A stretch of DNA of 35,501 bases, taken from Alphaproteobacteria bacterium. GTDB lineage: Bacteria; Pseudomonadota; Alphaproteobacteria; Micavibrionales; Micavibrionaceae. The stretch lies in contig JAERIN010000013.1 in NCBI GenBank assembly GCA_016757515.1, forward strand, positions 1 through 35,501. The letters are read 5' to 3'. Of the stretch, positions 24,788-35,501 are shown piece after piece. A model generated the notes under the pieces. That model saw only the letters and a program-made list of their open reading frames with translations, was not told the origin of the DNA and ran no database searches. Each line of letters begins with the position of its first letter. Within the stretch, counting starts at the first letter, position 1. The position numbers were made by a program, and so were the translations under genes.

Positions 24788-25003
24788 ATGGAGGTGATTG
24801 GATTTTTTGAAGCACAGTCCTTTTGGCGCGCGTTCGGCCTGGCGCGCCTGCTGTCCGTGGAGGAGGAGGGAGAGTTCCGCCGTATGACGTTCGCGGCCCG
24901 GCGCTCGGCCCTCTGCGCGTGCCACGTGGACAGCCAAGGCTTTGCGCTGGGTGGGGGGCCGCACAGCCGTATGGCCGCGCCGCTACTGTCGCCGCCGCGT
25001 TGA
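24788..25003 (+). CDS. Possible small gene, perhaps frameshifted at a G-tract
   Basis: A 71-codon frame beginning MEVIGFFEAQSFWRAFGLAR, with high GC at third codon positions as expected for a real gene in this genome. The last quarter (GPHSRMAAPLLSPPR) looks unlike protein. The -1 frame just after the G6 run at 24953-24958 continues naturally as RYIEKFIAEHAKKS to a stop at 25047. One extra G in that run would join the two parts into about 86 residues. It may be a pseudogene, a sequencing error or a phase-variable gene. I do not recognise the product, and no ribosome-binding site is evident. Confidence 0.35.
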   Translation: MEVIGFFEAQSFWRAFGLARLLSVEEEGEFRRMTFAARRSALCACHVDSQGFALGGGPHSRMAAPLLSPPR

Positions 25004-25043
25004 GGTATATTGAGAAATTCATAGCCGAACATGCAAAAAAGTC

Positions 25044-25072
25044 TTGACTTGTGCTATGTGATTTTCTATAGT
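25044..25072 (+). promoter_or_regulatory. Strong sigma-70-like promoter with overlapping inverted repeat
   Basis: TTGACT (25044-25049), 17-base spacer, TATAGT (25067-25072), 40 bases before the ATG of the next gene. TTGACT and AGTCAA (25070-25075) form an inverted repeat that covers both boxes, suggesting an operator. It is the best promoter match I see in the window. Confidence 0.6.
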
Positions 25073-25112
25073 CAAACTACCAGGCCGCAACCCCCAGTTT
25101 AAGGAGAACCCC

Positions 25113-25751
25113 ATGGGCATCTGTCTCTCTCTCTCTCGCTTGTTCGGTGAAAACACTACCATAGGTATGGCCCTGAAAGAATGCGGCACCCCTGCCGCTG
25201 TTGTGCGTTTCTCAGATGCCCGCGAAGCTTTTCACATGCCCTCCAAATACACGGTTTCTAACCCTCAGAGTGAGCGGTACAATCTTCCTTGGGATGAGGA
25301 GTCTTATGTGCCCTTTATAATGAAGCCCGACACAAACGATAGTGGTTTTTATGCATACATAGAGCCTATATCACAAATTAAGAGGTCTGGTGTCTTTGTC
25401 ATGCGCCTGGAGCGCATAAATCAGTTGATACCCAGAAATCGGGCCGATACAGAGCATAAAAGGAGGCTGCCAGATTGTACAAGTTTTTATATGGAAGGCC
25501 CTGTTGAAGATGGAGATATGCGCATCTGGTCTGCGGGCTGGAGTCATGAAAGACGATGGCTGGTGCCAATGCTCTTGTCTTGTCAATCAGAGCGAGTCGC
25601 TGGACGGGACGCGGCAGATCCTAGTCCTGAGCGCCTGCGGGTCCTGATACAGGAAGCGAGAGAGTATATGCGTTCTTATTTGCCCAATCCGGATACACTG
25701 CTGGGCCTGGCGAACCCCAAAGGCACGGAGCACGCGCCTGCCACCCAATAG
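25113..25751 (+). CDS. Uncharacterised protein with CT microsatellite after the start codon
   Basis: A 212-residue protein I do not recognise. It starts MGICLSLSRLFGENTT; the LSLS is encoded by a TC repeat of seven units (25124-25137). There is no signal peptide or membrane helix. The body is a mixed soluble sequence (YNLPWDEESYVPFIMKPDTN, GFYAYIEPISQIKRSGVFVM, FYMEGPVEDGDMRIWSAGWS) and ends in a helical, charged stretch. AAGGAG lies six bases before the ATG, and a strong promoter lies upstream, so expression is likely. Its DNA is clearly richer in A+T than the surroundings, which suggests recent acquisition. Gain or loss of a TC unit would shift the frame at codon 5, so the gene could switch on and off. 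Confidence 0.75.
   Translation: MGICLSLSRLFGENTTIGMALKECGTPAAVVRFSDAREAFHMPSKYTVSNPQSERYNLPWDEESYVPFIMKPDTNDSGFYAYIEPISQIKRSGVFVMRLERINQLIPRNRADTEHKRRLPDCTSFYMEGPVEDGDMRIWSAGWSHERRWLVPMLLSCQSERVAGRDAADPSPERLRVLIQEAREYMRSYLPNPDTLLGLANPKGTEHAPATQ
25124..25137 (+). repeat. (TC)7 microsatellite
   Basis: Seven TC units inside codons 4-9 of the gene starting at 25113. The unit length is not a multiple of three. Confidence 0.9.
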
Positions 25752-32981: not shown

Positions 32982-33000
32982 GTAGGCCCGGCGAGCCTAC
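32982..33000 (-). terminator. Hairpin at the end of ileS
   Basis: GTAGGC/GCCTAC with a seven-base loop, overlapping the ileS stop codon. There is no T-run, so it may only weaken read-through or protect the 3' end. Confidence 0.35.
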
Positions 33001-35498
33001 ACGCCCTTCTGCCCCACGACAAGGGCGCAGCGGGGGCATAGGTCACCCTCTACCTCGGGCAGGACTTTCCAGCAGCGCGCACACTTGGTGCCTGGTGCCG
33101 TGGCGAAGGTGACGGCCACCCCCGGCACGCCCTCCAGGACAAAGGCTCCCTGCGGTGCGGGGGCGAGAGCCACTGGCGCGGCGGATGTTATGCAAACCTC
33201 ATCTAAATCAACATTTTGCAGAGCGTCCTTCCAGTCCTGCGTGATGTGCACCACCGGCGCGGCCTCCAGGGACGAGCCGATGGCCTTGGCCTTGCGGTAC
33301 GGCTCAATCGCGCCCAGGACAACGCGGCGCAGGTCTCGCAGTTTGGCCCACTTGGCCTCCAGGGCCGGGTCTTGCCACGCCGGGTCAACCGCCGCATAGG
33401 TGCGCAGGTGCACGCTGTCCGCCTCCGCAAACACGCCGGGAGGGCGGTGGACCCAGGCCTCCTCCGTCGTGAAGGGCAGTATGGGGGCCATGCGCGTGAC
33501 CAGGGCGTCAAACAGGGTGGCCAGGACCGTCCGGCACGCCCGCCGCTTCGGGTCGTCCGGCGCGTCGCAGTAGAGACAGTCCTTGCGGATGTCCAGGTAG
33601 AACGCGGAGAGGTCAGCATTGCAGAACTGGTGCAGGGCGTGCGCCACAGTGCCGAAGGCATACGCCTTTTGGTGCTGCGCTATCTGTGCGTCCAGGGCCG
33701 CCAGGCGCGCGAGCATATAGCGCTCTAATGCTGGCATCTGCTCAACTGGCACGCGCTCTGCGGGCGTGTACCCGTCCAGCGCGCCCAGGAGGAAGCGCAA
33801 GGTGCCTCTTAGTCGCCGATACAGGTCCGCCACGGACTTGAGCAGGACATCGCCCACCGGCACGTCCTGGCGGTAGTCCACCGTGATGGCCCACAGGCGG
33901 ATGATGTCCGCGCCGTAGCGCTGGATGAGATCCTCAGGCGCGAGGACATTGCCCCGCGACTTTGACATTTTATAGCCCTTTTGGTCCACGATGAACCCGT
34001 GGGTGAGCACGGCCTTGTACGGCGCGGCACCCCGCGTGGCGCAAGATTCCAACAGGGAACTTTGGAACCACCCGCGGTGCTGGTCGGAGCCCTCCAGGTA
34101 CAGGTCTGCGGGCCAGGGCAGGCCGCGCTTTTCTAGGACAAAGGCGTGCGTGGCGCCGGACTCAAACCAAACGTCAACAATATCAAAGACTTGTTCGTAT
34201 TCCTTCACGTTATACTCCGGGCCCAAGAAGTCCGCCGGGTCGCGGGCCCACCAGGCGTCCGCGCCGTCTTGCCGAAACGCCTCAAGAATGCGTTCTTTCA
34301 CCTTGGAATCATTCAGGATTTCACCCGTGCCCTTGCGCACAAACAGGGCGATGGGCACGCCCCACGCGCGCTGGCGGGAGATGCACCAGTCGGGCCTCTG
34401 CGCCACCATGGCCCGGATGCGGTTTTGGCCCTGGGGCGGGACGAAGCGGGTTTTGTCTATGTCTTCCAGGGCCTTGGCGCGCAAGGACCCCCCCCTTACC
34501 CCCCCCTCTTCGCGGGGGGGGAGGGTTTTGTCCATCGCGATGAACCACTGCGGCGTGGTGCGGAACAGCACCGGCGCGCCCGAGCGCCAGGAGTGCGGGT
34601 AGTCGTGTCGGTACGACGCCTTGGCCAGCAGCGCCCCGGCGGCGGCCAGGGCCTTGATGACCGCGATGTCCGCGTCGCGCTCAGGGGCCTTGTGCAACTC
34701 GTTCGCAAACACCTGCTTGCCCGCAAACAGCGGGTGCGCGTCCGTGTAATACCCGTCGCCGTCCACGGCGGAGGCGATAGGAATCATATATTTTATATGA
34801 AGCGTATTGTATACGGTAATGCCTTTATCTGTAGGGGATATATTTTTCTTTAATCTTTTAATGACGTTATTTATAGCATAAAGAACTTCTTTGTTTTTTA
34901 GTTTCTTATCTTTCTGTTCTTTCTTTATCTTTCTTGAAATCTCAAAAGAGAAGTTATGGAGATTAACAATCTTATGATCGTCCACCCCGTGCCCCGGGGC
35001 GATATGGACAAAGCCGGTTCCTGTTTCGGCGGTCACAAACTCGGCGGGCAGGAGGGGGACGTCAAAAGCGTACCTCCCCCCCCTCGCAGAGGGGGGGGTC
35101 AGGGGGGGGTCCTCTCGCAGCGCATGCCGGATAGTTTCCGTCACGCCCTCGGGATTCTCCAAGACCTCTCTATTGGAAAAACGTATGACGCGAAACCCGC
35201 GCGCCTCTAAAAATATCGTGCGTTCTGCGTCGTGCTCCGCCGTGTCGGGGGTGTGTGTGTCCCCGTCTACTTCCACGATCAGGCCGCGCTCGGGACAGGC
35301 GAAGTCCGCGATATAGGGATAGATGGGGTACTGTTTACGGAAACTGTGCCCCGTTTGTCCCGCGCGCAAATGTGTCCATAGTTTTGTTTCGGCGGGCGTA
35401 AGAGCGTTGCGCATCTCTTTGGCGTTATTAAGGAGGGCCTGCCATTTCGGGCCCGTGCGCACGGGCCCGAAATGGCAGGCCCTCCTTAATAACGCCAA
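32997..35498 (-). CDS. ileS: Isoleucyl-tRNA synthetase (5' end missing) with in-frame DUF559 and other insertions
   Basis: One open frame of 833 codons that runs to the window edge. From about residue 142 to the end it is IleS, which charges tRNA-Ile and edits valine. Editing-domain blocks are YAFDVPLLPAEFVTAETGTG and VHIAPGHGVDD; then come CISRQRAWGVPIALF, YLEGSDQHRGWFQSSLLES and KMSKSRGN (ATP site). The C-terminal zinc motif is CARCWKVLPE then LCPRC. The HIGH motif and N-terminus lie outside. Residues about 16-127 are a DUF559 nuclease-like domain. Residues about 186-240 are a Lys/Asn/Ile-rich stretch absent from ordinary IleS. Residues 327-337 are an extra PPREEGGVRGG. All are in frame. 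The first 15 residues come from a palindrome and are probably not real. Confidence 0.88.
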   Translation of the reverse strand: MALLRRACHFGPVRTGPKWQALLNNAKEMRNALTPAETKLWTHLRAGQTGHSFRKQYPIYPYIADFACPERGLIVEVDGDTHTPDTAEHDAERTIFLEARGFRVIRFSNREVLENPEGVTETIRHALREDPPLTPPSARGGRYAFDVPLLPAEFVTAETGTGFVHIAPGHGVDDHKIVNLHNFSFEISRKIKKEQKDKKLKNKEVLYAINNVIKRLKKNISPTDKGITVYNTLHIKYMIPIASAVDGDGYYTDAHPLFAGKQVFANELHKAPERDADIAVIKALAAAGALLAKASYRHDYPHSWRSGAPVLFRTTPQWFIAMDKTLPPREEGGVRGGSLRAKALEDIDKTRFVPPQGQNRIRAMVAQRPDWCISRQRAWGVPIALFVRKGTGEILNDSKVKERILEAFRQDGADAWWARDPADFLGPEYNVKEYEQVFDIVDVWFESGATHAFVLEKRGLPWPADLYLEGSDQHRGWFQSSLLESCATRGAAPYKAVLTHGFIVDQKGYKMSKSRGNVLAPEDLIQRYGADIIRLWAITVDYRQDVPVGDVLLKSVADLYRRLRGTLRFLLGALDGYTPAERVPVEQMPALERYMLARLAALDAQIAQHQKAYAFGTVAHALHQFCNADLSAFYLDIRKDCLYCDAPDDPKRRACRTVLATLFDALVTRMAPILPFTTEEAWVHRPPGVFAEADSVHLRTYAAVDPAWQDPALEAKWAKLRDLRRVVLGAIEPYRKAKAIGSSLEAAPVVHITQDWKDALQNVDLDEVCITSAAPVALAPAPQGAFVLEGVPGVAVTFATAPGTKCARCWKVLPEVEGDLCPRCALVVGQKGV
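34485..34524 (+). repeat. 40-bp palindromic repeat, in-frame within ileS
   Basis: A C8/G8-rich unit whose right half is a hairpin (CCCCCCCC-TCTTCGC-GGGGGGGG). It matches 35073-35112 in inverted orientation with three mismatches in 40. On the coding strand it adds about 11 codons (PPREEGGVRGG) where IleS normally runs MDK-T-L-x-x-LRAKAL. Confidence 0.85.
34780..34973 (-). other. A+T-rich in-frame insertion in ileS
   Basis: About 190 bases with roughly 70% A+T inside a gene that is otherwise GC-rich. It encodes ISRKIKKEQKDKKLKNKEVL and a further Asn/Ile/Lys-rich part, between HGVDD and IASAVDGDGYYTD, where relatives have only about 15 residues. Confidence 0.8.
35073..35112 (-). repeat. 40-bp palindromic repeat at the 3' edge of the DUF559 insert
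   Basis: Inverted partner of 34485-34524. On the coding strand it encodes DPPLTPPSARGG, the linker between the DUF559 domain and the resumed IleS sequence. Confidence 0.85.
35118..35453 (-). mobile_element. DUF559 endonuclease-like domain inserted in ileS
   Basis: About 112 codons with the DUF559 (Vsr/PD-(D/E)xK-like) pattern: RNALTPAETKLWTHLRAGQ, HSFRKQYPIYPYIADFACPE, RGLIVEVDGDTH, AERTIFLEARGFRVIRFSNR and EVLENPEGVTETI. Asp in IADF and Glu/Asp in VEVDG are the likely metal ligands, so the nuclease site looks intact. The domain reads straight into IleS through the 40-bp repeat. Whether it is part of IleS, is made separately from an internal ATG (about 35414), or acts as a homing-type element is not known. 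Confidence 0.75.
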
Positions 35499-35501
35499 AG
35501 A
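35416..35501. repeat. Perfect 86-bp palindrome at the window end
   Basis: Bases 35416-35458 are the exact reverse complement of 35459-35501, centred on GTGCGCAC. The left arm is genuine DUF559 coding sequence (KWQALLNNAK). The right arm repeats it backwards up to the last base. Confidence 0.95.

Follow-up and report, generated by a model that had tools for sequence, protein, structure and literature searches.

How does the gene of an essential aminoacyl-tRNA synthetase come to hold a nuclease-like domain within its reading frame? The question is raised by a 35,501-nucleotide (nt) stretch of DNA from an alphaproteobacterium of the Micavibrionaceae (assembly GCA_016757515.1, contig JAERIN010000013.1, positions 1 to 35,501), which we call the window. 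At its right-hand end, ileS, the gene of isoleucyl-tRNA synthetase (IleS), contains a DUF559 domain and two other inserts in one frame. We propose that DUF559 and the palindromic repeats beside it constitute one mobile unit that is not spliced, preserves the frame of its host gene and is probably spread by its own nuclease. We put the probability of this reading at roughly 60%.

The ileS frame occupies positions 35501 to 32997 of the minus strand and is open over 834 amino acids (aa) and at its 5′ end. Pfam finds DUF559 (PF04480, E = 7.4e-31, residues 24–128), tRNA-synt_1 (residues 200–547), and Anticodon_1 in the translation, where KMSKS and the C-terminal Cys motif are both present. The inserts were defined by alignment with the IleS of 29 relatives (Table 1). 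A preliminary description of this DNA had reported three in-frame insertions in one ileS, including DUF559, with KMSKS and the zinc (Cys) motif kept; the open frame, the Pfam matches, and the alignment bear this out. DUF559 and its repeat were placed in the editing region, immediately before YxFDVPLL. The comparison with relatives that the same description had suggested shows this site to be insert-free or nearly so, with at most a few extra residues, in 27 of the 29. Two relatives carry different repeat-like in-frame peptides there, of the CHPERSEGS type (L037, G010) and the WIPASAGMT type (L040, G035), both names being descriptive. The solo palindrome, which encodes TLPPREEGGVRGGS, lies within an IleS loop of variable length, in which three relatives (L031, L044, and L049) have at least 10 extra residues. 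Over 46 nt it matches, at 89% and in inverted orientation, the repeat at the end of the DUF559 segment; therefore, the two belong together.

Table 1. Features of the ileS region, in positions of the window.
Feature	Position	Strand	Basis
DUF559 (PF04480) nuclease-family domain in the ileS frame	35118..35432	-	genome profile search, Pfam, alignment, structure model
Palindromic repeat, hairpin plus tail, on the 3′ side of DUF559; encodes PPLTPPSARGG	35073..35118	-	inverted-pair search
Solo copy of that palindrome in opposite orientation; encodes PPREEGGVRGG in frame	34479..34524	-	inverted-pair search, alignment
A+T-rich in-frame insert, about 59 aa, with no evident tie to the DUF559 unit	34790..34967	-	alignment, GC content, copy search
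ileS, C-terminal part; contains the A+T-rich insert and the solo palindrome	32997..35072	-	stop codon 32997-32999; Pfam, alignment
Perfect 43+43-nt palindrome at the contig end	35416..35501	.	inverted-repeat search

The window is the entire contig C5, one of the 90 that make up this 1.75-Mb genome. A profile search showed that ileS is divided between two contigs, the N-terminal part lying at the end of C38 as a frame of at most 276 aa that is open at the contig end, and the C-terminal part on C5. The gap covers profile positions 254 to 313, some 60 residues of the editing region. The perfect palindrome that ends C5 is probably a fold-back of the assembly, behind which the 5′ end of the unit is concealed; therefore, the 5′ side of DUF559 is not visible. 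The preliminary description had left room for a second, intact ileS, and the profile search of the contigs found none in the 1.75-Mb genome. Other matches to the ileS profile, on C56, C20, C23, and C1, have much lower scores and are, by reading of the matches, other synthetases. The sole ileS detected is thus the insert-bearing one.

The DUF559 domain of the window scores 106.7 bits against its Pfam profile (curated cut-off, 20.6) and has every one of the 15 columns found invariant when 33 DUF559 sequences were aligned (A2). Its structure model has a predicted local distance difference test (pLDDT) value of 88.1. The nuclease fold is conserved; the model matches 3hrl (Z = 15.0), I-Bth0305I (3r3p, Z = 12.0), and Vsr (1cw0, Z = 10.6), and Foldseek likewise indicates the likeness to I-Bth0305I. 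A profile search finds 3hrl and, weakly (E = 0.00096), 3r3p, which is catalogued as a mobile intron protein; the profile comprised 12 rows (alignment A1), one of which differs from its source, L063, by one residue. DUF559 is accordingly a predicted nuclease of a homing family, by likeness of sequence and fold, not of function. The EDxHD enzymes are described as one of six homing families (PMC6083498). The DUF559 protein VsrA of Caulobacter is reported to be required for the SOS response in cells without a cytosine methyltransferase (PMC12907096); this requirement fits a DNA-cutting activity. The domain is under purifying selection, the ratio of nonsynonymous to synonymous substitution rates (dN/dS) being 0.07 for a rimM-borne pair and 0.07–0.11 for four other pairs. 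For the priA-borne pair of genus g30 (dN 0.15) and one stand-alone pair (dN 0.12), dS was not computable, and one nearly identical stand-alone pair gave 0.99, a value resting on very few changes. No intein-type splicing (Hint) domain was found by Pfam in the window protein (E up to 1) or in 10 host proteins (E up to 1e-5).

The anatomy seen in ileS recurs in relatives of the family. DUF559 matches occur in 73 of 193 genomes, including that of the window, and many lie in long frames; 53 genomes with a best E of 2.0e-26 or lower were taken as strong matches, and the next genome has 6.4e-13. DUF559 lies in frame inside priA in 10 genomes of 8 genera, at two sites. At the first site, both host sides are seen in G002, G028, G032, G035, G064, G072, and G088; in G077 they lie on two contigs (C125 and C17), which we infer to be joined, and in G058 only the 5′ host side is seen. 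G029 has DUF559 at the second site. The 50 priA loci comprise the 30 best of 116 matching genomes and 20 picked partly for long frames, and these numbers are not a population insertion rate. A clear inverted repeat, defined by a score of 14 or more, accompanies the units of G002, G028, G029, G032, G072, and G088, and in G072 DUF559 stands between inverted repeats in a one-contig genome. The units of G077 and G058, which are at contig edges, were not scored. In the priA of G083 (L160), an in-frame repeat peptide of the SLRAQRSNL type occupies the site that holds DUF559 in other genera. DUF559 also lies within trpF (G016, inverted-repeat score 14.5) and mfd (G096), and it is joined in frame to the 5′ side of rimM, sufS, sufD, and murA and to the 3′ side of ruvC. 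Host profiles confirm priA, mfd, trpF, sufD, rimM, murA, and sufS over the eight loci scanned; the remaining host identities rest on reading of the translations. A tree of 67 rows from relatives, a chosen part of the matches from which L091 and L117 were left out (no usable DUF559 segment), left 29 of its 65 inner branches open over 120 columns; being poorly resolved, it was used for well-supported sister pairs only.

Units of the same kind occur beyond the family. From a scan of one genome per species, which used the 12-row profile of alignment A1, the best 80 of at least 578 confirmed DUF559 stretches were kept. Among these, DUF559 is in frame with the host on both sides in valS and mfd of Rickettsiales AM-377-L16 (L170 and L172), recO, ispE of a member of the Gastranaerophilales, a DEXH helicase, cca, and an M14 peptidase, and six of these seven hosts reach an inverted-repeat score of at least 14. 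The DEXH helicase, which is ligase-associated, is that of Mucilaginibacter sp. OK268; here DUF559 stands between inverted repeats, and the record bears no label as a metagenome-assembled genome. Hosts fused at one end only are recF, cobH, and ruvC. The valS and mfd genes of AM-377-L16 contain further repeat-like peptides, several of them in a row in mfd. Genes of recombination, repair, and replication (priA, mfd, recO, recF, and ruvC) recur among the DUF559 hosts, to an extent that may or may not exceed chance.

Inverted repeats are associated with DUF559 both across phyla and among relatives. At a score of 14 or more, they flank 59 of the 80 DUF559 genes from many phyla, whereas none of 240 random positions and 5 of 393 other open reading frames (ORFs; at least 150 aa, same loci) have them. 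One match (L192) rests on a run of N in the comparison with random positions; the ORF comparison scores N as a mismatch and also gives 59 of 80. Among relatives the proportions are 44 of 65 DUF559 loci and 0 of 150 other ORFs, L072 and L118 (contig edges) and L091 and L117 having been left out. The typical flanking repeat is a C/T-G/A hairpin with a tail, and a strict consensus of tail orientation failed.

Palindrome abundance and DUF559 are likewise associated, also within genera. The palindrome CCCTCTCCC-N(1-9)-GGGAGAGGG occurs in 70 of the 193 genomes, namely 46 of the 53 with strong DUF559, 3 of 20 with weak matches, and 21 of 120 with none (mean copy numbers 12.5, 0.3, and 0.6), or in 46 of 53 versus 24 of 140. 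Within 12 mixed genera, at least three palindromes were found in 21 of 27 species with DUF559 versus 5 of 43 others, a difference reached in 0 of 20000 within-genus permutations. An excess over two copies per unit was found in 20 of 27 versus 8 of 43 (14 of 20000 permutations, p about 0.0007). That DUF559 is the cause of this abundance would be one direction in which the association may be read.

The genome of the window (G000) contains the palindrome core at nine places with up to three mismatches (a backward control gives one per strand). Six of the nine come in twos within synthetase genes: ileS has two, hisS has an in-frame inverted pair, and serS has two in frame at a contig start. Matches on C14, C18, and C90, with three mismatches, were not counted as copies, the backward control giving one per strand. 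The preliminary description had supposed that the elements target ileS in particular; this finds no support, the repeat being also in frame in hisS and serS, and the DUF559 of relatives in priA, mfd, trpF, and others. Contig C35 (1-80, L255) starts within serS at the in-frame palindromes, much as the end of C5 is close to one in ileS, and in-frame repeats may break the assembly of such contigs. In the priA of this genome (L163), the second site has a short MSPPPKGEPLQKSPG insert, which may be a decayed palindrome. Directly after the hisS pair, about 300 nt (L254, C12, 1621-1920) have a GC content of 25–43% in an otherwise G+C-rich gene. This stretch still appears, by reading of the sequence, to encode histidyl-tRNA synthetase (HisRS), and it was possibly replaced by DNA from an A+T-rich donor.

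The A+T-rich insert of ileS stands apart from the repeats. Its approximately 59 extra residues follow HGVDDHKI; the GC content is 28% at 34775-34985 versus 68% for the window, and GC at third codon positions is 0.29 versus 0.82 in the later part of ileS. Two of the 29 relatives (L040 and L044) have unrelated longer loops at this site. The insert was rejected as a further copy of the repeat, being single in its own genome, where two other matches (14 and 32 nt, E = 3.9) are taken for chance. It was also rejected as a known IleS extension. A class-wide query matched 309 of 385 class genomes, mostly via the query flanks, and returned 29 loci besides its own; of these, 27 were aligned (L268 and L294 were left out), and none has a counterpart. 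In G470, G295, G164, and G244, matches extend into the insert, but alignment showed the matched part to be a normal loop; the matches of G398 and G475 (35%) lie outside the examined set. The preliminary description was right in kind in its main idea of palindromic, frame-preserving elements, one of them joined to DUF559. Its interpretation is partly supported; the view that the A+T-rich stretch, with a single copy and no counterpart in the 27 loci, belongs to the same kind of element is not. A second A+T-rich stretch of the window lies at 24981-25520 (GC 0.38–0.47 in 100-nt windows), around a frame of 212 aa at 25113-25751.

Several loci bear signs that may reflect movement. Two species of genus g30, G029 and G077, have sister copies of DUF559 (100/98) that occupy different priA sites, site B in G029 and site A in G077. 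Site B of G077 holds a solo palindrome unit, which resembles both the unit at which C125 ends at site A and the repeat next to DUF559 in G029. The priA genes of G022 and G072 are about 90% identical, save for some 170 nt directly downstream of the insert (46–62%). In G028, the first 60 nt downstream of the insert are 55–58% identical to the congeners, which are 93% identical among themselves, and this tract is nearest to that of G072, a carrier of another genus. The upstream priA flanks show no divergence of this kind, and the downstream cases come from two genera only. The diverged flanks may reflect co-conversion or import in these two cases. The closest empty sites are strongly diverged at the junction, too far for a target-site duplication to be read.

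These features would fit the following mechanism. The unit is taken to be a short open frame for an endonuclease of the Vsr/I-Bth0305I type, typically bounded by inverted GC-rich repeats of a hairpin plus a tail. The nuclease may be translated within the host protein or from a start inside the frame, and its targets for cutting or nicking would most likely be alleles that lack the insert, or cognate palindromes. Repair from a unit-bearing copy would bring in the unit and some of the DNA beside it. A unit that enters a tolerant loop of a host gene in frame would persist because the host protein still functions with the extra domain. Solo palindromes would be landing sites or remnants. A wider proposal, which we advance tentatively and with the odds somewhat against it, is that DUF559 drives a third, unrecognised class of palindromic elements beside RAYT/GTAG (repetitive extragenic palindrome (REP)-associated tyrosine transposase) and CGTC/RPE (Rickettsia palindromic element), its unspliced units homing in frame into loops of essential enzymes across phyla, converting these into host-nuclease-host fusions and leaving palindromes in coding sequences.

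Several points weigh against the proposal of a DUF559-driven unit. Neither cutting nor movement has been observed, and the 5′ (left) side of the unit of the window falls in the gap between C38 and C5 and is unseen. No clear inverted repeat is present at 21 of the 80 DUF559 loci from many phyla and at 21 of the 65 from relatives. The priA units of G035 and G064 score below 14, the cca unit scores 9.5, also below 14, and the mfd unit of G096 scores 9.0 on a contig that ends past the domain; no repeat is seen after DUF559 in G035 and G077. Tail orientation is mixed: of 294 sides, 107 have the tail inward (to the gene) and 45 outward, 73 are unclear, and 69 are stemless. Seven of the 53 genomes with strong DUF559 lack the tested palindrome (G000 has a variant form), and the 24 genomes that carry it without strong DUF559 stand on the other side, G022 having eight copies and no DUF559. 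The association covers DUF559 presence and genus; RAYT, the known REP-associated enzyme, lies outside it. The flank tract of G072 is nearest to insert-free G024 and then to G028, and its congener ranks 16th of 49. Our confidence is kept despite the units that lack two clear repeats, because the repeat scores over all loci carry that point.

The same data can be read in other ways. The palindromes may be spread by another enzyme, such as a RAYT or an IS200-like transposase, or by a replication process, with DUF559 as a passenger or homing into the repeats of others. REPs within genes, and REPtrons with RAYT, are well documented (PMC3733652), and both the presence of the palindrome in 24 of the 140 genomes that have no strong DUF559 match and the quarter to third, approximately, of DUF559 loci without a clear inverted repeat agree with such a mover. 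However, the palindrome excess tracks DUF559 within genera, inverted repeats lie beside most DUF559 genes sampled across many phyla, and GTAG is in neither 46-nt arm of the window, and we regard this explanation as rather unlikely. There is only a small chance, in our estimation, that DUF559 is a useful domain that host enzymes acquired, for example as a nuclease arm of PriA, and kept for their own benefit. Several hosts act in DNA repair or replication (priA, mfd, recO, recF, and ruvC), and the domain is under purifying selection; however, the other hosts are unrelated (ileS, valS, trpF, murA, rimM, ispE, and cobH), presence is patchy within genera, sister species have different sites in one gene, and repeats are found at most junctions.

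Two further explanations concern the window or its product. The DUF559 junction, which is at a fold-back contig end in a gene divided over two contigs, could be an assembly chimera. Comparable arrangements recur at other genes of many genomes, among them the one-contig G072 and that of Mucilaginibacter sp. OK268. In the window, the frame runs on into ileS without a break, and the inverted partner of the junction repeat is in the same gene; we regard a chimera as very improbable. It is scarcely more credible that the unit is removed before or during translation, by RNA folding of the palindromes, ribosome bypassing, or cryptic protein splicing, leaving a normal host protein. The inverted palindromes could pair in the mRNA, judging from their sequences, but the Pfam scans found no intein-type domain, and the frame is open throughout the unit, which would be needless if the unit were removed. 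The reading of DUF559 and its palindromes as one unspliced mobile unit is the one that we prefer.

This proposed unit shares features with several known systems. We know of no nuclease partner of RPEs, which are alike in that short palindromic DNA lies in frame in core genes; unlike them, the unit of the window has a nuclease gene beside, and typically between, inverted copies of the palindrome. RPE-4/6 belong to the CGTC-tagged repeats (PMC3733652), and neither CGTC nor GTAG is present in the two 46-nt repeat arms of the window. Intragenic REPs and RPEs are both known (PMC3733652, PMC10969869). REPs and REPtrons resemble the unit in having a gene bounded by palindromes of hairpin and tail, many solo copies, and known intragenic copies. 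However, the gene of the DUF559 unit is that of a nuclease, not of a tyrosine transposase, the window arms lack GTAG, and the unit, gene included, is in frame within host genes. I-Bth0305I (EDxHD homing) and Vsr share the catalytic fold with DUF559, and the diverged flanks beside some units may be a further likeness if they reflect co-conversion; unlike them, the unit has flanking palindromes and neither intron nor intein, the host protein appears to retain the nuclease domain, and cleavage is only predicted. Caulobacter VsrA is also a DUF559 protein predicted to be Vsr-like, but it has been studied as the product of its own gene, in connection with a cytosine methyltransferase and the SOS response (PMC12907096). 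No link of DUF559 to palindromic repeats was found among the listed titles and abstracts of the open-licence literature.

To our knowledge, the agent that carries palindromes into protein-coding genes has been an open question ever since the first account of RPEs in 2000. The history of RPEs is covered in PMC10969869. A nuclease that is physically linked to the palindromes and associated with their abundance within genera makes this question testable, with one protein and one plasmid assay. If the proposal is true, the large family DUF559 would gain the function of a mobility enzyme, and in-frame fusions such as helicase-DUF559 or ValRS-DUF559 would be explained. Essential enzymes could then take in a selfish nuclease domain without splicing.

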